From assembly GCA_046760705.1 (NCBI GenBank), contig JBHIER010000104.1, positions 1 to 9,144 of the forward strand: 9,144 nucleotides of DNA. Reading direction: 5' to 3'. The number at the start of each line of letters is the position of its first letter. Positions within the stretch are counted from its first letter, which is position 1. The translations under genes were made by a program, and so were the position numbers. Below, piece after piece: positions 2-9,144 of the stretch. Below the pieces are notes generated by a model. It did no database searches, had not been told where the DNA came from, and saw nothing but the letters and a program-made list of their open reading frames with translations. The stretch comes from JBHIER01 sp046760705 [NCBI: bacterium]. Its GTDB lineage: Bacteria; JBHIER01; G020348925.

Positions 2-1090
2 CTCTCTCTCCACACTTACCTGCGCTATGCGCACGATTTTCAAACGGCCATACCCGGTGATCTAAAAGGGAAGATATACAACCTCTATCTTAATTGGAAA
101 GAAGTCGCCCACTCGGTGGATCTGCGATTGGGACGGCAGTATCTTGCGGCCGGTGTGGGGAAGGGGACGATGGATGGGTTAAAAATCAGTTTCCGTCGGG
201 GAAAGCGGTTTTCCTTTCTCGGATACCTGGGGACACAAGTCCCACTAAGAAAATCGACCCAGGTTAACAGTTGGTCGGAAAGTAAAATGTGGGGCGCATA
301 TTTTTGGACCAATTACCCCTGGGAGACGGAGGTGGGGATCAGTTTTGTGCGCAAGGAGAGGCAGAGAGATTCTTACCTCAGCCCTTACAGCGAAAAAGGG
401 ATAGCGCCAGACCCCCTGGTAGAACAACTGTTAGGGATATTGTTGAGGAGAAAGTTTGGCCGCCGGATAGAGACTTATGGGAGAATGGATTTCGATGCTC
501 TCTTTTGGGATTTCGGGCTGAGATGGGCTCAGATCGGAACCAGGTACCGGGCTCATAATAGACTTTTCCTCTTCTTCGAGTTTGACCGTCGCCGCCCTTC
601 GGTGAGACGGGGGTCTGTCTTCAGTGTCTTCAGACAGAAGGCCAATAGCGAGTTCAGATTGGGTGCGGACTATGCCGTAAACCAACATATGAGCCTGGTC
701 GGCGAATATGCGCTCGTTCTCTTCAGCCACGACAATGGACACAGAATACGCATTGGTACGAACCTCGGATCTACGTCTATAGGCTATGTGGGCAGACTTG
801 GTTACAGCGGAGACAGCCACGGCGCATACGGGAACGTTTCGTACCTCATCAATGATAAGCTCTCTGTCAGCGCCGGCGTCGACTATTCTCGATATGAATA
901 TGAGGAGGAAGTCTCCGGAAGATTTGATGCCCTGGGAGCCATGGCTCGGATAGTGTATCAACCCGTCAAGAATATTACTTTGAGCCTTGAAGGTCAAAAC
1001 TTAAGGAATAGATTGTACAGCCACGATACCAGGCTTTTGGCTCGGATTGATGTCAGATTCTTTCGAAGGCTAACAAAGGGAACGGAGTAA
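2..1090 (+). CDS. Outer-membrane beta-barrel (porin-like) protein, 5' end missing
   Basis: The frame is open from the first complete codon of the window to TAA at 1088-1090, giving 362 residues with the N-terminus and signal peptide outside the window. A GTG at 116 is in frame, but coding sequence clearly continues upstream of it. The protein shows many short stretches of alternating hydrophobic and polar residues with frequent Gly, Tyr, Arg and Asp, as in transmembrane beta-strands, and has no long hydrophobic helix and no Cys-rich heme motif. An LRLGRQ...G..DGLKISF segment near residues 40-65 resembles the start of porin-like barrels. The end (DTRLLARIDVRFF) looks like a final strand followed by a short charged tail. 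It stops 4 nt before a 14-heme cytochrome gene, which suggests it is the barrel part of an outer-membrane electron conduit. I cannot assign a named family; another porin or a channel unrelated to electron transfer remains possible. Confidence 0.75.
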   Translation, partial: LSLHTYLRYAHDFQTAIPGDLKGKIYNLYLNWKEVAHSVDLRLGRQYLAAGVGKGTMDGLKISFRRGKRFSFLGYLGTQVPLRKSTQVNSWSESKMWGAYFWTNYPWETEVGISFVRKERQRDSYLSPYSEKGIAPDPLVEQLLGILLRRKFGRRIETYGRMDFDALFWDFGLRWAQIGTRYRAHNRLFLFFEFDRRRPSVRRGSVFSVFRQKANSEFRLGADYAVNQHMSLVGEYALVLFSHDNGHRIRIGTNLGSTSIGYVGRLGYSGDSHGAYGNVSYLINDKLSVSAGVDYSRYEYEEEVSGRFDALGAMARIVYQPVKNITLSLEGQNLRNRLYSHDTRLLARIDVRFFRRLTKGTE

Positions 1091-1094
1091 CATC

Positions 1095-2180
1095 GTGAAG
1101 AGATTTTCCAAAGGGATTTTGGTTCTTTATTTGACGGCTGTTGTCGTTCTCTTGGTCTCGATGGTGCTGGCCATTCAAGACAGGAGCAAGGATTTCATTT
1201 TTTCCCACGAGCTGCATCTGGTGGATGTGGGCGCCGATTGTACCACCTGCCACGCAAGAGCTGAAGAGAGCCAAAAGTCTGGGGACAACAATTTACCCAC
1301 CAAGGAGAGCTGTTTGGAGTGTCATGACGGGGATATAGCTCCGGACGATTGCCAGGTGTGCCATAAGGATCCTGAGAACCCCGTGGCCTTTGAAAATCCA
1401 CTGCGGAGGATAATATTTTCCCACAAGAACCATGTGGCCAGGAAAATCGAATGTGTCGACTGCCACCAAGGTCTGGGGGAGACCGATTTCGCCAGCCCAG
1501 CCAACCTGCCTAAGATGGCCGACTGTCAGACTTGTCACAATGGGACGAAGGCTGAGGATGAGTGTACTCTCTGCCATCCCCAGCCTGTGCCCAAGCCGGT
1601 CTCTCACGATCTCTCCTGGATTAAGAATCATAAGGAGTACGCCCGGGAGGATATGGCCTCATGCGCTGGCTGTCACGATAGAGAGAACGATTGTCAGAGG
1701 TGCCACCAGGGGGACAACCTGGCTCAGATCACACACCCGCTGAATTATCTTTACACCCACTTTCTGGATATCAAGGGCAAAGAACGGGAGTGCGATGTGT
1801 GTCACGATCAACAAAGCTTTTGTGATGATTGCCATCAGGGAAGAGGCATTATGCCCCTTTCCCATTCTAGTCTGGACTGGGCCAACAGGACTTTGGGCGA
1901 TGGGGGTAAACACACCGACGCGGCCGTCAGGGACATAGAATACTGTGCCTCGTGTCACGACACCGAAGGGACCGATCCCAGTTGTTTGAGATGCCACGTC
2001 GACTTTGACGGTCGGAGGGGCAACGATGCCAACCCTCATGGACCAGGTTTTGGTGGTCGGATGGGCGAGGGGCCCTGGCACGATGACGACGGCTATCTCT
2101 GTTTCGATTGTCACACCAACACTCACAGGGCAGGCGACAGGTTTTGCGGCTACTGCCACGGAGAAGAGGATGAAGATTAG
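1095..2180 (+). CDS. Secreted 14-heme c-type cytochrome (c3/c7-like modules)
   Basis: The 361-residue protein starts at GTG 1095, supported by GGAG at 1084-1087 (7 nt spacing). Residues 8-26 form a hydrophobic segment after Lys/Arg, with a plausible signal peptidase site after VLA (residue 26), so the product is likely periplasmic; retention as an N-terminal anchor is possible. There are 14 CxxCH motifs, at residues 49, 73, 86, 120, 144, 157, 190, 200, 233, 243, 284, 297, 336 and 351. The first six form two triheme units, each headed by FSHxxH (36-41 and 108-113), the pattern of class III c3/c7 cytochromes. The rest fall into four diheme units, most of them preceded by His-rich segments that could supply distal ligands. 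The tail is acidic. Placed between a barrel gene and a heme lipoprotein gene, it is best read as a periplasmic electron carrier or the periplasmic arm of an outer-membrane conduit. The heme count is seen directly; the role is inferred. Confidence 0.93.
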   Translation: MKRFSKGILVLYLTAVVVLLVSMVLAIQDRSKDFIFSHELHLVDVGADCTTCHARAEESQKSGDNNLPTKESCLECHDGDIAPDDCQVCHKDPENPVAFENPLRRIIFSHKNHVARKIECVDCHQGLGETDFASPANLPKMADCQTCHNGTKAEDECTLCHPQPVPKPVSHDLSWIKNHKEYAREDMASCAGCHDRENDCQRCHQGDNLAQITHPLNYLYTHFLDIKGKERECDVCHDQQSFCDDCHQGRGIMPLSHSSLDWANRTLGDGGKHTDAAVRDIEYCASCHDTEGTDPSCLRCHVDFDGRRGNDANPHGPGFGGRMGEGPWHDDDGYLCFDCHTNTHRAGDRFCGYCHGEEDED

Positions 2181-3624
2181 AGATCTCGTCGCCGTTGCAA
2201 TATTGTCTCTCTCTTTTTTCCTCCTTGTGGCAGTTGGAGGATGCAGCAAACGCAAACTACCCACGGCCGTATCCGTCCACCCTCCCGATTGGTCGGAGGA
2301 ACACTCACCCAATTTTCACGGGAAGAAAGTTGAAAGGGACGGGTTGCCTTTTTGTGCACAATGTCACGGCTCTGATTACAGAGGGGGACAGAGCGGGAGT
2401 TCCTGTTATGAATGTCACCCCAACGGTCCCGAAGACTGCACCCTTTGTCACGGTGGTGTGGACAATGAGACCGGTGCCCCACCCTATGGGCTCAACGGTG
2501 ACTCCCTCACCTCTTACAAAGGCGTTGGTGCCCACTCCACCCATGTTCAGTCCGGCGATCTCAAGAAGGGGTTTGAATGCATCGAATGTCACCGGGAACC
2601 AGGGGCCGTGGACGACCCTGGCCATATCGACTCTTCCTTGCCGGCTGAGATTGTCTGGGGCCAACTCGCTCAGACTGAGGGTGCGACCCCGAGTTGGGAT
2701 GGGATTTCCACATGCAAAGATGTATACTGCCACGGGGAATTCGCCGGCGGTGAAACGACGTTCAATCCCGTATGGACCCAAGTAGATGGCACCCAGGCCG
2801 CCTGTGGCACCTGTCACAGCATGAATCCCACGACAAACGCGCACCCAGATCACCTCACCAGTTACGATTTTCCGTGCCAACTCTGCCATCATGGGTACGT
2901 CCCCGACGAATCGGTAGTAATCGACACTCATGTCAATGGCATAAAGGACGTGGTGACCGATCCATCTGTGGGGGGTAGTTTTAGCCAGGGAGTTTGCCTT
3001 GATGTCCTCTGTCACGGTGCACAAACGACGCCCGATTGGAGCACCGGTGGAACACTGACGTGTGTCAGTTGTCACGGTGGTGCAGACAATGAGACCGGTG
3101 CCCCACCGCCTGATTTGAACGGCCATACTGCTGCTTCCTTTAAGGGTGTGGGGGCTCATACCCCACATGTAACCGAAGGGGACCTCAGGACCGCTCTGGA
3201 ATGTACCGAGTGCCACAGGAAACCATCGGAGCTCAGCGATCCGGGTCACATCGATGCCCATCTTCTGCCGGCCGAAATCGCCTGGGGCCCTCTGGCTCAG
3301 ACCCTCAATGCGACTCCAAATTGGGATGGAAGCTCAACGTGCACTGATGTCTATTGCCACGGCAATTTCGCCTTTTCGAAAGAGGCGAGCGAAAACCCCT
3401 GGGTCTACCAGGACAGCCTGATCGTCGGGAACAATTACAGCCCAAGCTGGATCAAGGTGGGCGCTGGAGAAGCCGGTTGTGGGACCTGTCACGGTCTCCC
3501 TCCCCAGGGTCACATTCCTCAAACAACGTGCAGCAATTGCCACCGCAGTGTGGTTGACGAGAACAACCTCATCATTGATAAGACCAAGCACATAAACGGC
3601 CAAATCGATGTCTTCGGAGAATAA
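2170..3624 (+). CDS. Outer-membrane lipoprotein cytochrome c, 13 heme motifs (CxxxxCH/CxxCH family)
   Basis: I chose ATG 2170 (484 residues). It has GGAG at 2160-2163 and is followed by a lipoprotein signal: MKIRD, a hydrophobic stretch to residue 22, then VGGC with Cys25 as the lipidated residue. Ser follows the Cys rather than Asp, which fits transport to the outer membrane. The frame stays open upstream to 2005, but that part shadows the previous cytochrome gene. Ten CxxCH motifs lie at residues 62, 79, 90, 137, 212, 236, 298, 345, 437 and 454, and three CxxxxCH motifs at 182, 276 and 391. The CxxxxCH...CxxCH pattern and the recurring H(V/I)NG..DV (residues 254 and 474) match the domain first described in Geobacter sulfurreducens cytochromes. 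Residues 90-188 and 298-397 are duplicates. The gene overlaps its upstream neighbour by 11 nt, which suggests translational coupling. The likely role is the surface or outer-leaflet heme protein of a conduit with the upstream barrel; whether the domain faces out or in cannot be told. Confidence 0.92.
   Translation: MKIRDLVAVAILSLSFFLLVAVGGCSKRKLPTAVSVHPPDWSEEHSPNFHGKKVERDGLPFCAQCHGSDYRGGQSGSSCYECHPNGPEDCTLCHGGVDNETGAPPYGLNGDSLTSYKGVGAHSTHVQSGDLKKGFECIECHREPGAVDDPGHIDSSLPAEIVWGQLAQTEGATPSWDGISTCKDVYCHGEFAGGETTFNPVWTQVDGTQAACGTCHSMNPTTNAHPDHLTSYDFPCQLCHHGYVPDESVVIDTHVNGIKDVVTDPSVGGSFSQGVCLDVLCHGAQTTPDWSTGGTLTCVSCHGGADNETGAPPPDLNGHTAASFKGVGAHTPHVTEGDLRTALECTECHRKPSELSDPGHIDAHLLPAEIAWGPLAQTLNATPNWDGSSTCTDVYCHGNFAFSKEASENPWVYQDSLIVGNNYSPSWIKVGAGEAGCGTCHGLPPQGHIPQTTCSNCHRSVVDENNLIIDKTKHINGQIDVFGE
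2437..2733 (+). repeat. Internal duplication, copy 1 (diheme plus CxxxxCH module)
   Basis: This stretch codes for residues 90-188 of the lipoprotein cytochrome, running from CTLCH through CIECH to CKDVYCH. A hand alignment with the copy 624 nt downstream gives about two thirds identical residues and a single one-codon gap next to LPAE. DNA identity is high in places: 2461-2483 is identical over 23 bases to 3085-3107. Confidence 0.9.
3061..3360 (+). repeat. Internal duplication, copy 2
   Basis: This stretch codes for residues 298-397, from CVSCH through CTECH to CTDVYCH. It carries the same heme order as copy 1 and the same conserved segments (GADNETGAPP, KGVGAH, DPGHID, LPAEI.WG.LAQT, DVYCH). 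It is one codon longer than copy 1. Confidence 0.9.
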
Positions 3625-5065
3625 TAATAGAAGTCGGAACATATTGGGGGCGGTCTGGAGACGGTTCTATTCGATGAAGTTCGCCATCACTATTCTGATA
3701 CTCCTGGCCGTGGCCTCTATTGGAGCCATCATCTTAGGGGAAATCTTCCCGCCTGGTGCTCCGGCTGGAGCGGAGTTTTTCCGATCCAGATTGGGTGAGA
3801 CGAAATACAGCATATTCAAAGGCTTGGGGTTCTTCAATCCCTACCGTTCCTTCTGGTATGTGTCCCTCTTAGGTATCCTCTCGGTGTCCTTGACCGTCTG
3901 TTCGGTGAAACGTCTGGGAGGGATTTTGAAAATCGCCTTCGGGAAAAGTTTTAGGGCCTCGGCGTCGGAGATTCGGACATTAGAGAACAGCCGAGCTTTT
4001 ACTGCCGAGATGTCCGCTGAAAAGTCAGCCGAGCTGCTGGGAGCTGTGATGCGAAAGCGGCTCTATCGAGTGAATACCAGGAGCGACGGGGAGAGGCGTC
4101 TCATCTTCGCCCGCCGAGGAGGCGTGGCCCGATTGGGGTTCTTCTTTACCCACACCGGACTGGTGGTTGCTCTCGTGGGGGGATTGTTAACCAGTCTGCT
4201 CGGATACAGCGTCTACCGGTGGGGAGGGAAGGGTGATATAATGACAGCCCCAGATGGCGATTTTCAGGTGCAGGTGGATAAGTTTGAGATCTTGTACAAT
4301 GAGAAAGGACAGGTGAAGGACTATCTCAGTACAGTCACGGTTCTGGAGGATGGGGAACGATCGTTTACCAAGCTCATCGAGGTGAACCGTCCACTGCGGT
4401 TTCGTGGAGTCAATTTCTATCAGAGTTCCTATCGCTCAGATGCCAGAGATTTTGAGGAGGCGGTTTTGGCCGTCCGGGACTCGACCGGCAAGGTGATCAC
4501 CATGGTGAAGACGAAGATGGGGGAATCCATCACCATCCCTGAGACGCCATATACCCTTCAGCCGGTCGACTTTGTGGGCAACTTTATGATGAGGGGGAAG
4601 GAGGTCTTCTCCGACCCTCGATACAAAGAGTTTCGAAATCCGGCCGTCAAGGTGGGCCTGTATAACAATGAGGAACTCATTCAGGAGGGTTGGATCTTCA
4701 GCCCTGAATTGGCCCGCTTTCATCCTCTCCTACAGGAGTACGGACTGGAGCTGGTTAATGTCAAGCCGGTGTTTCAGACAGGGCTTCAGGTCACCCGAAA
4801 TCCGGGGACTCCTCTCATCTGGATCGGTTTGCTGGTGATGACGGTCGGGGTGTGTGCTGCTTTCTACATTTCCCACAGAAGGGTATGGGTCGTCGTGAGT
4901 CCTGCTGGCGGTGGGAAGTGTCACGTTGCTCTGGGCGGTCAGAGCAACAGAGACAAGATAGCTTTCAGAAGAGAGATCGACCAAATGGCAGAAAAGACTC
5001 AGCACGCCTGTCTGGCTGCCCGCGCGCGGGGCACAGATAGGCACAAGCAGGGAGAACGATCATGA
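3608..5065 (+). CDS. resB: ResB/Ccs1 (CcsB) cytochrome c maturation protein
   Basis: This is an integral membrane partner of CcsA in System II, which moves heme across the inner membrane and joins it to CxxCH cysteines of periplasmic apocytochromes. The 485-residue protein shows the family layout: TM1 about 24-46 after WRRFYSMKF, TM2 about 83-101, TM3 about 176-200 with FTHTG (His182), a large periplasmic domain about 203-400 containing EVNRPLRFRGVNFYQSSY, then TM4 about 402-421 followed by SHRRVWV (His423) and a soluble tail. His182 and His423 are candidates for heme-handling residues. ATG 3608 overlaps the lipoprotein gene by 17 nt and has no good ribosome site, so translation may be coupled. 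ATG 3674, with GGAG 14-17 nt upstream, is an alternative, but it would cut off the conserved Trp just before TM1. It is followed by ccsA with an ATGA overlap. The family call is firm; the exact start is less so. Confidence 0.94.
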   Translation: MSSENNNRSRNILGAVWRRFYSMKFAITILILLAVASIGAIILGEIFPPGAPAGAEFFRSRLGETKYSIFKGLGFFNPYRSFWYVSLLGILSVSLTVCSVKRLGGILKIAFGKSFRASASEIRTLENSRAFTAEMSAEKSAELLGAVMRKRLYRVNTRSDGERRLIFARRGGVARLGFFFTHTGLVVALVGGLLTSLLGYSVYRWGGKGDIMTAPDGDFQVQVDKFEILYNEKGQVKDYLSTVTVLEDGERSFTKLIEVNRPLRFRGVNFYQSSYRSDARDFEEAVLAVRDSTGKVITMVKTKMGESITIPETPYTLQPVDFVGNFMMRGKEVFSDPRYKEFRNPAVKVGLYNNEELIQEGWIFSPELARFHPLLQEYGLELVNVKPVFQTGLQVTRNPGTPLIWIGLLVMTVGVCAAFYISHRRVWVVVSPAGGGKCHVALGGQSNRDKIAFRREIDQMAEKTQHACLAARARGTDRHKQGERS

Positions 5066-5895
5066 CCTTGACACTCACGGATGTCACTTTTTTCTGGATT
5101 GCGTTTTGGTTCTATCTTTTGGGGTTCATCGGTTTCAGTGTATACTTGGCCTTTGAGAAGAAAGTGGTAAGCACAGTGGCCACCGCAGCCATGCTCATCG
5201 GTTTTGTGCCTCAAACTGTGGCCCTTATTATGAGATGGAAGCTGTCGGGACATCCACCCTTTACCAACATGTACGAATATATGGTCGTCATGTCCTGGAT
5301 GGCCGTGGCCTGTTTCATCTTTGTCATGGCCAGGTTCAAAAAGCCGATAGTCGGCTCTTTCATTGCTCCCGTCACCTTAATCCTCGTGGTCTGTGCCTCC
5401 CTTTTACCCAAAGAGATCTCTCAACAGTTGGTGCCGGCCCTGCAGGACTATTGGCTCTATATTCATGTCTCCCTGGCGGCGATCGGTGAAGGAGCCTTTG
5501 CCGTGGCCTTTGGTGTCAGCATTATGTATTTGATCAGGAGAAACGTCGGTCTGGCAGATTCGAGCCCCGTGGCCAGACGGTTTCCCTCCGCGGAGATCCT
5601 CGATGAGATCAACTATAAGGCGATCTCCATCGGTTTCCCCCTGTTCACTGTGGGGGCCCTGTTTGCCGGTGCCATCTGGGCCCATCGGGCCTGGGGGACC
5701 TTCTGGGGGTGGGACCCCAAGGAGGTGGGTTCGTTGATCATCTGGATTTTTTATCTCCTCTACTTGCACGCTCGATATCAAAGGGGCTGGAGAGGACGTA
5801 AGGCGGCCGTATTGTCGATCATAGGGTTCGCTATGGTTCTGCTCTCTTTCTGCGGGAATCTGTTCTTGGGAGGAGAGCATGCCTACACGTCTTAA
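5062..5895 (+). CDS. ccsA: CcsA/ResC cytochrome c maturation protein (heme handling, WWD domain)
   Basis: This polytopic inner-membrane protein is the heme-presenting half of the CcsBA synthetase. The 277-residue protein is about seven to eight hydrophobic helices with the signature WWD segment WGTFWGWDPKEV at residues 211-222. Histidines that fit the conserved family positions are His64 (SGHPPFTNMYE), His135 (YIHVSLA), His208 (WAHRAWG) just before the WWD segment, and His273 (GEHAY) near the C-terminus. The length matches stand-alone CcsA rather than the fused CcsBA form. ATG 5062 overlaps the resB stop (ATGA) and has GGAG at 5051-5054, 7 nt upstream. It is the last gene of the first block, directly behind two cytochromes that carry 27 heme motifs, which are its obvious local clients. 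Confidence 0.95.
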   Translation: MTLTLTDVTFFWIAFWFYLLGFIGFSVYLAFEKKVVSTVATAAMLIGFVPQTVALIMRWKLSGHPPFTNMYEYMVVMSWMAVACFIFVMARFKKPIVGSFIAPVTLILVVCASLLPKEISQQLVPALQDYWLYIHVSLAAIGEGAFAVAFGVSIMYLIRRNVGLADSSPVARRFPSAEILDEINYKAISIGFPLFTVGALFAGAIWAHRAWGTFWGWDPKEVGSLIIWIFYLLYLHARYQRGWRGRKAAVLSIIGFAMVLLSFCGNLFLGGEHAYTS

Positions 5896-5936: not shown

Positions 5937-5951
5937 AATCGCACTTTGAGA

Positions 5952-6138
5952 ATAAGTATATCAGATGATCAGGGCATCAGTGGGAAGGGAACCAGATAAA
6001 CAGAATATCAGAAGATCAGGATATCAGTAGGGAGTGTACCAGCGGATCAGAATATCAGGATAAACCACGCTCCAAGGAGACAATACCTGATACCCTGATA
6101 ATCTGATATCCTGCCTACTGATCTAGTGATGTGCTGAT
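5952..6138. repeat. Inverted array of 8-bp-period ATCAG / CTGAT units
   Basis: The left half has ATCAG at 5960, 5968, 5976, 6007, 6015, 6023, 6046 and 6054, with degenerate units in the same 8-bp register (ATAAG 5952, ACCAG 5991, AACAG 5999, ACCAG 6038). Two 10-nt G-rich linkers (5981-5990 and 6028-6037) shift the register by one base, and each is followed by ACCAG. The right half has the reverse complement CTGAT at 6087, 6095, 6103, 6118 and 6134, with CTGCC at 6111 and GTGAT at 6126. The halves can pair: CAGGATATCAG at 6017-6027 is complementary to 6103-6113, and ATCAGTAGG at 6023-6031 to 6114-6122. The units are too short and too close together for CRISPR. The function is unknown. Confidence 0.85.
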
Positions 6139-6188
6139 ATGCTCTTTTAATTTGCTTTAATTTCTTGCCAAAAAAACAAAGATTTCAC

Positions 6189-6238: not shown

Positions 6239-6697
6239 TTGGCGGAAATGAACCCAGCAGAGGAATCTGTAACCCGTCGCAGATTTTTAGATTATGTCAT
6301 CGGGGGACTTTTTCTGCTGACAGGCTTGGGAGTTTTGGCTCCCGTTGTCTCCTTCCTCCGACCTCCGAGAAGGAGAACCGGAGCCGCCGGCTCTGAAAGA
6401 GTGGAGGTGGCTCCTCTCTCGGAGTTGCAGGTCGGAGCGGCAAAGGCGATCCAATACCAGGGAAAAAATGTGTTGGTCATCCACTCCAAAAGGGGAGTGA
6501 CTGCCCTCGATATGAAGTGCACCCACCTTGGTTGCATGATCGAATGGCTGCCGGATAAGGAGGTCGTATATTGTCCCTGCCACGGGGCGTTTTTTGATCC
6601 GCAGGGAAATGTCCTCTCCGGACCTCCTCCCAGGCCTCAACCAAACTTTAAGGTCGAGATTGCCGGTGAGATCATTTATGTAACGGGAGAGGCTTAA
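6239..6697 (+). CDS. Rieske [2Fe-2S] protein of a cytochrome bc-type complex (low-potential variant)
   Basis: The protein takes one electron from quinol at the Qo site of cytochrome b and passes it to a cytochrome c. It has 152 residues and starts at TTG (see the ribosome site at 6225). TRRRFLDY at residues 12-19, followed by a hydrophobic helix (20-40), looks like a Tat-type signal anchor, as is usual for Rieske proteins; a short Arg/Pro/Gly-rich hinge follows. Cluster ligands are Cys94 and His96 in CTHLGC and Cys112 and His115 in CPCHG; Cys99 and Cys114 can form the usual disulfide. After CPCHG come Ala117, Phe118, Phe119, so the Ser and Tyr whose hydroxyls raise the potential in high-potential Rieske proteins are both absent. 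The conserved SGPPPRP loop is present (127-133). The gene stops 2 nt before the cytochrome b gene. The size and the b6f-like neighbours suggest the petC/qcrA type. Confidence 0.96.
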   Translation: MAEMNPAEESVTRRRFLDYVIGGLFLLTGLGVLAPVVSFLRPPRRRTGAAGSERVEVAPLSELQVGAAKAIQYQGKNVLVIHSKRGVTALDMKCTHLGCMIEWLPDKEVVYCPCHGAFFDPQGNVLSGPPPRPQPNFKVEIAGEIIYVTGEA

Positions 6698-6699
6698 AA

Positions 6700-7416
6700 A
6701 TGAATCTGTGGTCGAAGATAGCCGGCTGGATTGAAGAACGAATAGATGTTAAATCTATCATCAACTTCTTGCCCATCATTTATGGCGAACTGGACAAACG
6801 ATTGGAGCTTAAGGAGGCTCTGGGAAAAGCTCTGAAGAAGCCGGTGCCCAAGCACGTCAATCTATTCCACTGCTTTGGCGGGATCACATTTCTGCTTTTT
6901 GTCATCGAGATCATCACCGGGGTTTTATTGGCTCTGTATTACAAACCATCTCCCGAAGAGGCTTTTGCCAGTGTAAAATTTATCACCAACGAAGTCACCT
7001 TCGGCTGGTTGATCCGGCAGGTGCACGCCTGGGGTGCTCAACTGATGATTCTCATGGTTATTTTACACATGCTGCGGGTCTTTTTTCAGGGAGCCTACAA
7101 ATCACCGCGGGAGTTGAACTGGATCGTGGGCGTTCTGCTTCTTTTTGTGACTCTGACTTTCGGTTTTACCGGCTATCTACTGCCCTGGGATCAGCTCTCC
7201 TTTTGGGGAACGACGGTCGGCACTGAGGTGGCGGGAGGGGTTCCCCTCATCGGAAATTTTATTCTCATCCTGTTGCGAGGGGGTGAGAATGTGACCGAAG
7301 ATACGCTGACCCGGTTCTATGCCCTGCACGTGCTGGTCTTACCGTGGATAACCGCCGGCCTCTTGGCTTTACATTTTATTATGGTCCGACGGCAGGGTAT
7401 TGCTGGCCCATTATGA
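6700..7416 (+). CDS. petB: Cytochrome b, N-terminal part (cytochrome b6-like)
   Basis: This quinol-oxidising inner-membrane subunit binds two b hemes. The 238-residue protein has four helices (about 59-81, 109-130, 141-161, 207-229). Heme ligand pairs are His109/His123 and His210/His225: 13 residues between the first two and 14 between the second two, which is the b6 rather than the bc1 spacing. HVNLFHCFGGIT places Cys58 where cytochrome b6 has the Cys that carries heme c(i). Other b6 signatures are FGWLIRQVHAWGA, SPRELNWI.GV, GFTGYLLPWDQ, LTRFYALHVLVLPW and the end RRQGIAGPL, which ends like chloroplast b6. The N-terminus is about 20 residues longer than plant b6. ATG 6700 has GGGAGAGG at 6685-6692. 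The complex is split into b6 and subunit IV by design, so the stop is not a frameshift. The symbol is by similarity; qcrB would be equally fair. Confidence 0.95.
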   Translation: MNLWSKIAGWIEERIDVKSIINFLPIIYGELDKRLELKEALGKALKKPVPKHVNLFHCFGGITFLLFVIEIITGVLLALYYKPSPEEAFASVKFITNEVTFGWLIRQVHAWGAQLMILMVILHMLRVFFQGAYKSPRELNWIVGVLLLFVTLTFGFTGYLLPWDQLSFWGTTVGTEVAGGVPLIGNFILILLRGGENVTEDTLTRFYALHVLVLPWITAGLLALHFIMVRRQGIAGPL

Positions 7417-7442: not shown

Positions 7443-7940
7443 ATGGAGGAACAGGAAAAATTGGCTGATAAAGGGAAAAACCAGAAATTGAATGAAGAAG
7501 GGATTCCCTTTTTCCCCAACCATATTCTTAAAGAGATCATCGTCATATACCTCGTTATGGGGGTCCTCCTCAGCTTATCGGTGCTGTGGCCTTTTTCGTT
7601 GCACGAGAAAGCCAATCCATTCTCTACCCCCGAAGGGATTAAACCGGAGTGGTACTTTCTGGCCGTCTATCAGGTTCTTAAATACATTCCCAAGGGCATC
7701 GGCATAGTTGGGATGGGTATTTTTGCTCTCCTTCTGATCCTCTGGCCATTCATTGACAAGACTCCAGGACAACCCGGAAGGAGGGGGCGATTGGTGATTG
7801 TCCTGGGTGCCGTGCTCATCGTCCTGTGGCTCTTTTTTACGGGCCTGGGCTACCTGTCGGAGTCAACCAGAACAATCTTTGGTCAAAAGTATGAATTTGA
7901 TATCAGAGGTGTGCCGCACAAGGTGAGGGAACCTGAATGA
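7443..7940 (+). CDS. petD: Cytochrome b, C-terminal part (subunit IV-like)
   Basis: The 165-residue protein completes the cytochrome b core. It has three hydrophobic helices (about 30-50, 88-104, 116-136), as subunit IV does. The Qo-site motif PEWY is at residues 68-71, in the context NPFSTPEGIKPEWYFLAVYQVLKYIP, which matches subunit IV and cytochrome b C-terminal domains. A charged N-terminal 20 residues precedes GIPFFPNHILKE, the usual entry to helix E. ATG 7443 has GGAGG at 7429-7433. The gene lies 26 nt after the b6-like gene and overlaps the following cytochrome gene by 4 nt (ATGA), which points to one transcript and coupled translation. The C-terminal tail (about 140-165) is soluble and somewhat longer than in plant subunit IV. 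Confidence 0.94.
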   Translation: MEEQEKLADKGKNQKLNEEGIPFFPNHILKEIIVIYLVMGVLLSLSVLWPFSLHEKANPFSTPEGIKPEWYFLAVYQVLKYIPKGIGIVGMGIFALLLILWPFIDKTPGQPGRRGRLVIVLGAVLIVLWLFFTGLGYLSESTRTIFGQKYEFDIRGVPHKVREPE

Positions 7941-9144
7941 GAAAAAACGTTGTCCTTGAACACATTGTGCTGGGTATTTTTTTTGTCGCCCCAATACTTT
8001 TTCGGACGGGGGTCGCTCAAGAGCAGCAGCCATCCTCTTGTATCGAATGCCATGAAGACGTCAAAGAAGAGTTTGAGACGAGCATTCATAGCCACATAGG
8101 TATCCAGTGTGTGGACTGCCACGGTGGTAATCCCGGGGATTTGGATCCGGACCGATCCATGGCCAGGTCTGCAGGCTTCAGAGGGGATTACCAGGATGAC
8201 CAGCCTCCTTTTACGAAAAGGGAGACGGTAGAGATGTGTGCCTCCTGTCATGCCGATCGGAAAAGGATGAAACCTTTCGGCATCCCCACCGATCAGTTTG
8301 ACCAGTACAAAACCAGCCAACATGGCATGGCCTTATACAGAAAGGGAGACGAGCATGTGGCTGCGTGCATCGATTGCCACGGCAACCATGACATCCTTCC
8401 GCCCAGCGATCCTAAAAGTAGAGTTTATCTTCTCAATATACCGCAGATGTGTGCCAATTGTCATTCAGATGAGGCTTTGATGAAGCTATACGACCTGTCC
8501 ACAGATAGTTATCAGAAATATATTGGTAGCGTTCATGGTGTGGCCCTCCTGGAGCGCGGAGAACGGGGAGCACCCGAATGCGCTCGGTGTCACGGGGCCC
8601 ACGGGGCTATGCCTCCCGGAGTGACCGAGGTGAGCAGCGTGTGCGGGCAGTGTCATCGGAATACCAGAGACTACTTCAATCGGAGTCCCCACAAAAAGGC
8701 TATGGATGAGAAGCTCATAAAGGAATGTGTCTCCTGCCATAACCACCATGCCATCTCCGCCTCGTCCCAGGGGATGTTCGATACCATCTGCATAAAATGC
8801 CACGAAGAGGGGACGTGGGCCTACGAGCATGGTCAGAAGATCAAAGCGATACTTGTGGAGGCAGAGGGGCGTGTTGCGGATGTCTTGAAGGACATGGAGA
8901 GAGCAGAGGTCCGAGGCATCGATATCGACACCGAGAAGGGGATCTTGGAAGAGGCGAAGACGAACCTCATTCAGGCTCTTCCTGTTCAACATACTCTTTC
9001 AGTCATCGAGGTGGAGAGATATACCACGAAAGCGAAGTCCGTGGCCCAGGAGGTCGATTCACGTATTCAGGCCATTTTCTCATCCCAGCGACGGCGCAGA
9101 TGGGCTCTGGGAGGAGTTTGGGTATTTATTCTCTTCACAGTTTT
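7937..9144 (+). CDS. Nonaheme c-type cytochrome with C-terminal membrane segment, 3' end missing
   Basis: The frame opens at ATG 7937 inside the stop of the subunit IV gene and stays open to the window end (402 complete codons). Residues 1-27 form a signal peptide (RKNV, hydrophobic core, TGVA before QEQ). Nine CxxCH motifs lie at residues 35, 58, 101, 144, 172, 215, 236, 264 and 285. A repeated pattern, S-x-H-x(8-17)-CxxCHxxH (SIHSH 49, SQHGM 128, SVHGV 198, SPHKK 250), alternates with hemes in an (M/V/I)CxxCH context. After residue 295 there is a heme-free, charged, probably helical stretch to about 384. Four Arg then lead into a hydrophobic segment starting at 389, likely a membrane anchor with its start on the cytoplasmic or periplasmic side undecided. 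By position it takes the place of cytochrome f/c1 as electron acceptor of the Rieske/b complex. The pattern resembles NapC/NirT- or c554-like multiheme proteins only loosely; a catalytic role is not excluded. Confidence 0.93.
   Translation, partial: MRKNVVLEHIVLGIFFVAPILFRTGVAQEQQPSSCIECHEDVKEEFETSIHSHIGIQCVDCHGGNPGDLDPDRSMARSAGFRGDYQDDQPPFTKRETVEMCASCHADRKRMKPFGIPTDQFDQYKTSQHGMALYRKGDEHVAACIDCHGNHDILPPSDPKSRVYLLNIPQMCANCHSDEALMKLYDLSTDSYQKYIGSVHGVALLERGERGAPECARCHGAHGAMPPGVTEVSSVCGQCHRNTRDYFNRSPHKKAMDEKLIKECVSCHNHHAISASSQGMFDTICIKCHEEGTWAYEHGQKIKAILVEAEGRVADVLKDMERAEVRGIDIDTEKGILEEAKTNLIQALPVQHTLSVIEVERYTTKAKSVAQEVDSRIQAIFSSQRRRRWALGGVWVFILFTV

Follow-up and report, generated by a model that had tools for sequence, protein, structure and literature searches.

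A conserved gene trio for an outer-membrane barrel and two multihaem cytochromes, a putative porin-cytochrome conduit, in bacterial contig JBHIER010000104.1 and in Fibrobacterota

Gene content of the locus

The stretch of DNA analysed here (the window) comprises 9,144 nucleotides, positions 1 to 9,144 of contig JBHIER010000104.1 (assembly GCA_046760705.1), from the bacterium JBHIER01 sp046760705. It opens with three consecutive genes, the trio with which this study is concerned, predicted to encode an outer-membrane β-barrel, an exported 14-haem cytochrome (cytP) and a 13-haem lipoprotein cytochrome (cytL). The window contains nine open reading frames (ORFs), every one on the + strand, the first cut at the 5' end and the last at the 3' end. 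L001, named in the first line, is a contig of a Fibrobacteria bacterium described below.

2..1090, + strand: outer-membrane β-barrel, 5'-truncated; aligned to the modelled L001 relative, it begins with strand 3 of 22 (ORF, 12-barrel alignment)
1095..2180, + strand: cytP, exported 14-haem c7-type cytochrome (GTG start; 14 CXXCH; PF14522)
2170..3624, + strand: cytL, 13-haem lipoprotein cytochrome, predicted outer membrane (ATG start; haem motifs; TIGR01904; lipobox)
3608..5065, + strand: ResB, System II cytochrome c maturation (PF05140, 2.2e-77; 17 bp overlap with cytL)
5062..5895, + strand: CcsB/ResC, System II cytochrome c maturation (TIGR03144, 240.4 bits, cut-off 187.6)
6239..6697, + strand: Rieske iron-sulfur protein of a b6f-type quinol complex (PF00355, 1.3e-12)
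6700..7416, + strand: cytochrome b6-type subunit (PF00033, 8.2e-66; NF040969 ExtP, 271.8 bits against a cut-off of 290)
7443..7940, + strand: subunit IV/cytochrome b C-terminal part (PF00032, 1.1e-15; PEWY at amino acid 68)
7937..9142, + strand: 9-haem cytochrome, 3' end open (9 CXXCH; PF14537, 2.2e-11)

Barrel and cytP are separated by 4 bp, and the genes that follow overlap (cytP-cytL -11, cytL-ResB -17, ResB-CcsB -4 bp). The ORFs, gaps and haem motifs agree with the first-pass annotation, made from the sequence alone, which had placed a barrel, a secreted 14-haem cytochrome and a 13-haem lipoprotein in one operon. The last four genes are spaced by +2, +26 and -4 bp, and 343 bp lie between CcsB and Rieske. 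Because the first five and the last four genes are each packed tightly, two transcripts are likely, and the Rieske gene is possibly on a transcript separate from that of CcsB.

Recurrence of the trio in Fibrobacterota

A scan of named genomes returned one relative, L001, which carries two trios, each in the order barrel, cytP, cytL. A panel of 100 genomes of the same phylum, called Fibrobacterota after the title of L001, was searched with cytP, and 50 of them gave matches at E<=0.001. Strong matches (E<1e-20) came from 13 of the 100 genomes, in 14 loci; the other 37 of the 50 matching genomes gave weaker matches only (1.2e-15 to 3.5e-4), and a profile of the barrel matches one of these 37, G093. 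The gene-order counts rest on the 14 strong loci and not on the 37 genomes with weaker matches. In all 14, a barrel gene lies directly upstream of the cytP relative and a gene for a lipoprotein with CX4CH motifs directly downstream, with the genes mostly touching or overlapping; three of the upstream barrels run into contig ends and could be recognised via the barrel profile. The link between the three genes, for which the first-pass annotation had suggested conservation of gene order as a check, is thus found at every strong locus. Judged from these sequences, the trio is conserved as a unit and the predicted cassette is real, and we take the recurrence of gene order to be the decisive evidence for a putative conduit cassette.

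The three genes also diverge together. Over 13 loci, the distances of barrel, cytP and cytL correlate (Mantel r 0.88-0.93, p 0.0002). The trees of barrel and cytP recover matching subfamilies, and in both the pair of trios in genome G001 is split alike. The placement of the window is unsure in either tree (long branches). The L040 and L041 barrels, being contig-end fragments, entered neither the barrel alignment and tree nor the Mantel test. PF09698 was present in one of two genomes tried.

The barrel profile matched 14 of 167 genomes, in 17 rows that we read as 15 genes (two split over contigs). Fourteen of the 15 lie inside a trio; the remaining one (G093) is at a contig end, where its context is not judgeable. 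A barrel family occurring without cytochromes had been named beforehand as the result that would speak against a conduit, and no barrel lacking neighbouring cytochromes was clearly found among the 15 profile matches in the 167 genomes. This is a partial and limited test, since most of the profile's seeds were trio barrels and 12 of the 15 genes found were themselves seeds.

The two multihaem cytochromes

The haem motif counts of cytP and cytL lie far above those of shuffled sequences and are not due to chance. In cytP, 14 CXXCH motifs hold 28 of the 28 cysteines, compared with a mean of 0.144 and a maximum of 3 motifs in 2000 residue shuffles, and 13 further histidines are possible distal ligands. 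In cytL, there are 10 CXXCH and three CX4CH motifs (means of 0.084 and 0.080 in 2000 shuffles, with a maximum of 2 each) and 17 further histidines that might serve in the same way. Of the 27 cysteines of cytL, 26 fall in haem motifs and the 27th is that of the lipobox (VGGC-S), which carries a +2 Ser, a predicted outer-membrane signal as had been proposed in the first-pass annotation. A longer cytL ORF (2005-3624, upstream TTG start) was rejected because of the lipobox start at 2170.

CytP begins with a signal-like hydrophobic segment (amino acids 8-26) and matches PF14522, a c7-type domain, at 1.6e-20. It consists of a conserved core with 10 haems (amino acids 1-252) and a 4-haem C-terminal extension. 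The Fibrobacterota relatives align to amino acids 8-253, that is, to 10 of the 14 haems (best 155 bits, E 9e-49), contain 8-11 CXXCH each and keep the haem sites invariant in the alignment. The extension (window 1851-2177, amino acids 253-361) occurs in 0 of the 14 aligned Fibrobacterota relatives. Compared with solved structures, the cytP profile matched 3ov0 best (6.9e-24), which we take to be a polymeric c7 cytochrome 'wire'. PF22113 (MtrC/MtrF domain II/IV) also matches cytP (34.4 bits, cut-off 30), and the profile matches 6r2q_A at 2.9e-7, presumably the MtrCAB entry, although its label reads otherwise; we read both as general haem-module similarity because many other haem proteins match too. 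A scan of viral contigs with cytP found no relative. Searches of plasmids by tblastn returned five records for cytP (Rhizobium and Bradyrhizobium; partial, 25.6-33.3% identity) and no match for the window barrel.

CytL matches TIGR01904 (CxxxxCH/CxxCH domain) with 86.7 bits, the cut-off being 27. The lipid-anchor cysteine and one CX4CH site are invariant in 15 of 15 aligned lipoprotein rows, for several of which the start codon was picked by hand. In a small BLAST set, from which the L029a lipoprotein was left out, cytL reached up to 66 bits against the Fibrobacterota lipoproteins (E 2e-15 to 0.003).

The barrel

The window barrel contains no cysteine and no hydrophobic-helix segment, and its family matches are weak: PF13505 at 1.4e-5 (25.8 bits, under the cut-off of 28.7) and PF00593, the TonB-dependent receptor barrel, at 0.0013, also under its cut-off. 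As the first-pass annotation had noticed, the N-terminus is missing. Alignment to a full-length relative puts the loss at ~62 residues, which comprise the signal peptide and strands 1 and 2 of the model, so the window copy begins at residue 63 of the L001 relative, the first residue of strand 3. Among the window barrel and 12 Fibrobacterota trio barrels, nine alignment columns are invariant (for example, G105-R106 and D119-G120). In a BLAST search of a small set (14 sequences), the window barrel scored 42 bits at best (E 1.9e-7). We tie it to the Fibrobacterota barrels because of the best pairs, the common invariant positions and the same gene order.

An AlphaFold model of the L001 barrel (8721-9962), computed from a three-row alignment of window and L001 sequences only, has a signal helix and 22 strands at modest confidence (predicted local distance difference test (pLDDT) 59.6, predicted template modelling score (pTM) 0.50). 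For porin-cytochrome (Pcc) barrels, 18-22 strands are predicted (PMC4245776; this and the other published sources are cited from excerpts), so the earlier impression of an oddly short barrel probably does not hold; the strand count belongs to the L001 relative, the window copy itself being truncated. Foldseek placed the FimD usher and OprD/Occ-type porins on top (TM-scores <=0.5 by query length), and in a second fold comparison Z reached 19.2 for TonB-dependent receptors and 17.3 for OprD-type porins. MtrB is not among the 50 matches listed in these fold searches, which has no bearing either way, and a search of the PDB with the barrel profile gave no match at E<=10.

Such likenesses would suit a barrel that is an ordinary substrate-specific porin and stands beside cytochrome genes by chance: the model resembles OprD-family porins and TonB-dependent receptor barrels, and the sub-threshold PF00593 match points the same way. 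The fold match is generic, however, no porin model reaches its cut-off in the window, and the barrel genes lie in trios with none clearly outside, as far as a profile seeded with trio barrels can tell. We consider chance adjacency highly improbable.

Comparison with known porin-cytochrome conduits

Several of the traits by which Pcc clusters are recognised can be found in the trio. A barrel gene adjoins that of a periplasmic multihaem cytochrome in the window and in the 14 strong Fibrobacterota loci; the 14 CXXCH motifs of cytP lie within the range of 5-14 haems for the periplasmic partner, its location being predicted from the signal-like segment; cytL would be the outer-membrane lipoprotein cytochrome, given the lipobox with +2 Ser and the anchor cysteine kept in 15 of 15 rows, and its surface exposure is inferred. 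As for the barrel range of 18-22 strands, the modest-confidence model of the L001 relative, with 22, would put the family at its upper end; the window copy is truncated. Sequence similarity to OmaB, OmbB and OmcB is set at E < 0.01 in the Pcc definition (PMC4245776).

By make-up, the closest described cluster is that of Ignavibacterium album, likened here by description: IALB_1839 is a porin, IALB_1838 a 14-haem periplasmic cytochrome of 400 amino acids and IALB_1837 an outer-membrane cytochrome with atypical CX3-15CH motifs (PMC4245776). The window trio resembles it in haem number and in the atypical haem motifs. The I. album cluster differs in its additional periplasmic cytochrome, IALB_1840, and in that no quinol complex is mentioned in the excerpts of PMC4245776, where its porin and periplasmic cytochrome are described as distant from other Pcc groups; elsewhere, Ignavibacteria conduits are termed OmbB-like (PMC7399161). 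The order barrel, periplasmic cytochrome, lipoprotein is that of Geobacter ombB-omaB-omcB (PMC4245776), whose OmaB/OmcB-type Pcc has, by description, 8 and 12 haems compared with the 14 and 13 of the window trio. OetABI of syntrophic sulfate reducers likewise combines a porin, a periplasmic cytochrome and an extracellular lipoprotein cytochrome; it differs, again by description, in occurring often with OmcX/OmcS-like cytochromes (PMC10553843).

MtrCAB and the trio share the same working principle; MtrB has 28 predicted motifs (PMC4245776). The window barrel stayed below the cut-off of the MtrB/PioB model PF11854 (E 0.044, 12.8 bits, cut-off 23), and the MtrB-type model TIGR03509 gave no match for it at E<=1, nor for the 13 aligned barrels, window included, at E<=0.1. 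CytP gave no match to the DmsE/MtrA decahaem model TIGR03508 at E<=1. Among the profile searches against conduit families that the first-pass annotation had called for, the MtrB/PioB, DmsE/MtrA and ExtP cut-offs were thus not reached, and that of PF22113 was passed by cytP. Its suggestion of a new type can be kept only as a possibility: the MtrB/PioB models are unmatched, but the same make-up is already in print for IALB_1837-1840 (PMC4245776). A separate family is possible, the comparison with OmbB, ExtB/ExtE, ExtI, OetI and IALB_1839 being by description only. The cassette is a further example of a known machine type, with varying electron-input neighbours. Literature searches on conduits in Fibrobacterota, with Rieske or with [NiFe] hydrogenase brought up no description of it among the papers listed. 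With it, the known conduits gain a conserved putative cassette that extends to Fibrobacterota, for which the papers listed did not cover such conduits.

Two Geobacter clusters provide precedents for the neighbourhoods described below, namely ExtHIJKLMNOPQS (PMC5877670) for the quinol set and ExtEFG (PMC6148476) for the hydrogenase. ExtEFG comprises a 21-strand barrel, a lipoprotein cytochrome and a 12-haem cytochrome termed periplasmic, and forms a unit with a NiFe hydrogenase (PMC6148476). Its gene order (barrel, lipoprotein, 12-haem cytochrome) differs from that of the trio, and its hydrogenase is Hox-like, whereas the small subunits beside Fibrobacterota trios are twin-arginine-like at the N-terminus (by eye). 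The 12-haem protein GSU2724 (ExtG) has atypical haem motifs (PMC6148476) and is classed as an outer-membrane cytochrome in PMC4245776. ExtHIJKLMNOPQS, like the window, clusters a barrel and multihaem cytochromes with a Rieske protein and a cytochrome b; it differs in that rhodanese-like ExtH replaces the outer cytochrome, in ExtKL and in that ResB-CcsB goes unmentioned in the excerpts of PMC5877670.

This likeness raises the question of whether the barrel resembles ExtI in serving as a channel or anchor for some soluble oxidant, which the cytochromes would reduce with no threaded wire. The cytochrome b6 of the window, at 271.8 bits near but under the ExtP equivalog cut-off of 290, would fit such an arrangement. 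No ExtH-type rhodanese was found among the nine proteins of the window, which does not cover the region upstream of the barrel; each of the 14 Fibrobacterota loci keeps a CX4CH lipoprotein cytochrome, and the divergence of cytP follows that of the barrel. On these grounds, a channel of this kind appears quite unlikely.

Proposed electron path

We consider it probable that the trio is a porin-cytochrome conduit that passes respiratory electrons outward. The conduit reading of the first-pass annotation gains from the recurrence of the trio as a unit in Fibrobacterota, from the matching subfamilies of the barrel and cytP trees and from the invariant sites: the anchor cysteine and CX4CH of the lipoprotein and the haem sites of the wire. 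That cytP inserts into the barrel and cytL is exposed at the surface is inferred, as are the route of the electrons, its outward direction and the acceptor. The barrel would be the outer-membrane scaffold, which cytP, a chain of c7-type haem modules, may enter from the periplasm, and lipid-anchored cytL would be the electron outlet on the outer face. ResB-CcsB would attach the many haems. The Rieske/b6/subunit IV/9-haem set may oxidise menaquinol in the inner membrane and hand the electrons to cytP, and the path would then run from quinol to cytP in the barrel, to cytL and to an extracellular acceptor (a metal oxide, another cell or a soluble oxidant).

Several points weigh against this proposal. 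The agreement of the barrel and cytP trees, which were run without a control gene, can be explained by shared descent alone, and every relative with gene-order information comes from one phylum. Pairwise, the window barrel is weakly tied to the Fibrobacterota barrels, L033 (E 0.02) and L035 (E 0.23) being non-significant in the 14-sequence set; the L001 barrel model is modest and its PDB neighbours are generic; and the similarity of cytL to its relatives is partly due to haem motifs. The predicted model of cytP is unreliable (pLDDT 39.3). The hydrophobic N-terminal segment of cytP is long, with weak matches to QrcA, ExtN and ExtO far under the cut-offs (QrcA, 40.8 bits, cut-off 180), and cytP as an inner-membrane-anchored carrier is possible. 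As for the electron source, the 343-bp gap ahead of Rieske weakens the link between conduit and quinol complex, and the b6 of the window finds relatives in just 4 of 167 genomes, two of these by weak matches, and none of the four carries a trio.

Neighbouring genes and electron input

In the window, the subunit IV contains PEWY and the cytochrome b6 two histidine pairs (109/123 and 210/225) as well as Cys58, which we take to be the haem c_i ligand position of b6-type proteins; quinol oxidation by the Rieske/b6/subunit IV set is therefore plausible. The 9-haem cytochrome is likely the electron exit of the quinol complex. The association of conduit and quinol complex is one of neighbourhood and not a proven operon.

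The neighbours differ in Fibrobacterota, where Pfam was run on chosen ones in L030, L031, L033, L034, L037, L038, L059 and L061 and the rest were judged by eye from ORF lists. RnfD-type genes lie downstream of the trio in L030, L031 and L033, the last with further Rnf-type subunits and a c554-type cytochrome gene nearby, which suggests a ferredoxin- or NADH-linked input; these three loci group as one clade whether the tree is that of the barrel or of cytP. ResB and CcsB occur in the same gene row ~6 kb downstream of the trio in L030 and L033, and ResB ~3 kb downstream in L034. Four of the 14 barrel-bearing genomes (G008, G020, G034 and G066) encode a [NiFe] hydrogenase large subunit of full length (E<1e-146) immediately upstream of the barrel, its match ending 48-87 bp from the barrel match in all four. 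The hydrogenase/barrel sites are as follows.

G008:C28:37556-40278 (L036/L062)
G020:C52:286216-288947 (L038)
G066:C476:1589-4281 (L037)
G034:C54:40199-41868 (L061)

The small subunit was confirmed in three loci (L038, L037 and L061), and the N-termini of the small subunits beside Fibrobacterota trios are twin-arginine-like, judged by eye. Hydrogenase-linked L036-L039 fall in one clade, which in the cytP tree also takes in L041, a locus with a truncated upstream region. The position of the hydrogenase suggests electron flow from H2 to the conduit.

These neighbours bear on direction, as the same complex might carry electrons inward, from an extracellular donor such as Fe(II) or another cell into the periplasm. 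Related Mto/Pio conduits serve Fe(II) oxidation (PMC4245776). Four Fibrobacterota trios adjoin a [NiFe] hydrogenase, a possible producer of H2, and three are near Rnf-type genes. The window neighbour, in contrast, is a Rieske/b6 complex with PEWY; such complexes normally oxidise quinol, and running them in reverse costs energy. Inward flow is in our estimation unlikely.

Across the loci, the trio is the constant part and the electron-input neighbours are the varying one. We tentatively suggest, with more doubt than confidence, that the trio may be a portable outer-membrane electron port, a family of its own, with an exchangeable source: a b6f-type complex, Rnf-type genes or an exported-looking [NiFe] hydrogenase. 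With its gene next to that of the barrel on the upstream side, the hydrogenase could supply the haem wire with electrons from H2, bypassing the quinone pool. If the exchangeable-input pattern is true, bacteria would have re-plugged a single outer-membrane wire into various sources of electrons, and in its hydrogenase-linked form, a quinone-independent flow of electrons from H2 to the surface would be directly testable.

Some minor features of these regions were also recorded. The gap between CcsB and Rieske contains ATCAG-type repeats at 8-nt spacing and an imperfect inverted repeat of 62 nt, 74% complementary (both in window 5948-6147); an Rfam search on this gap gave 0 matches. In L059 (5031-12005; G056:C12), an 11-haem cytochrome, small 4-haem proteins and an NrfD-type membrane protein are encoded some kb upstream of the barrel, perhaps a further type of input. 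In L001, which belongs to a metagenome-assembled genome, a gene for a 1075-amino-acid protein with 22 CXXCH motifs (1864-5091) adjoins the two trios and stands beside sensor kinase-like and response regulator-like genes (by eye).

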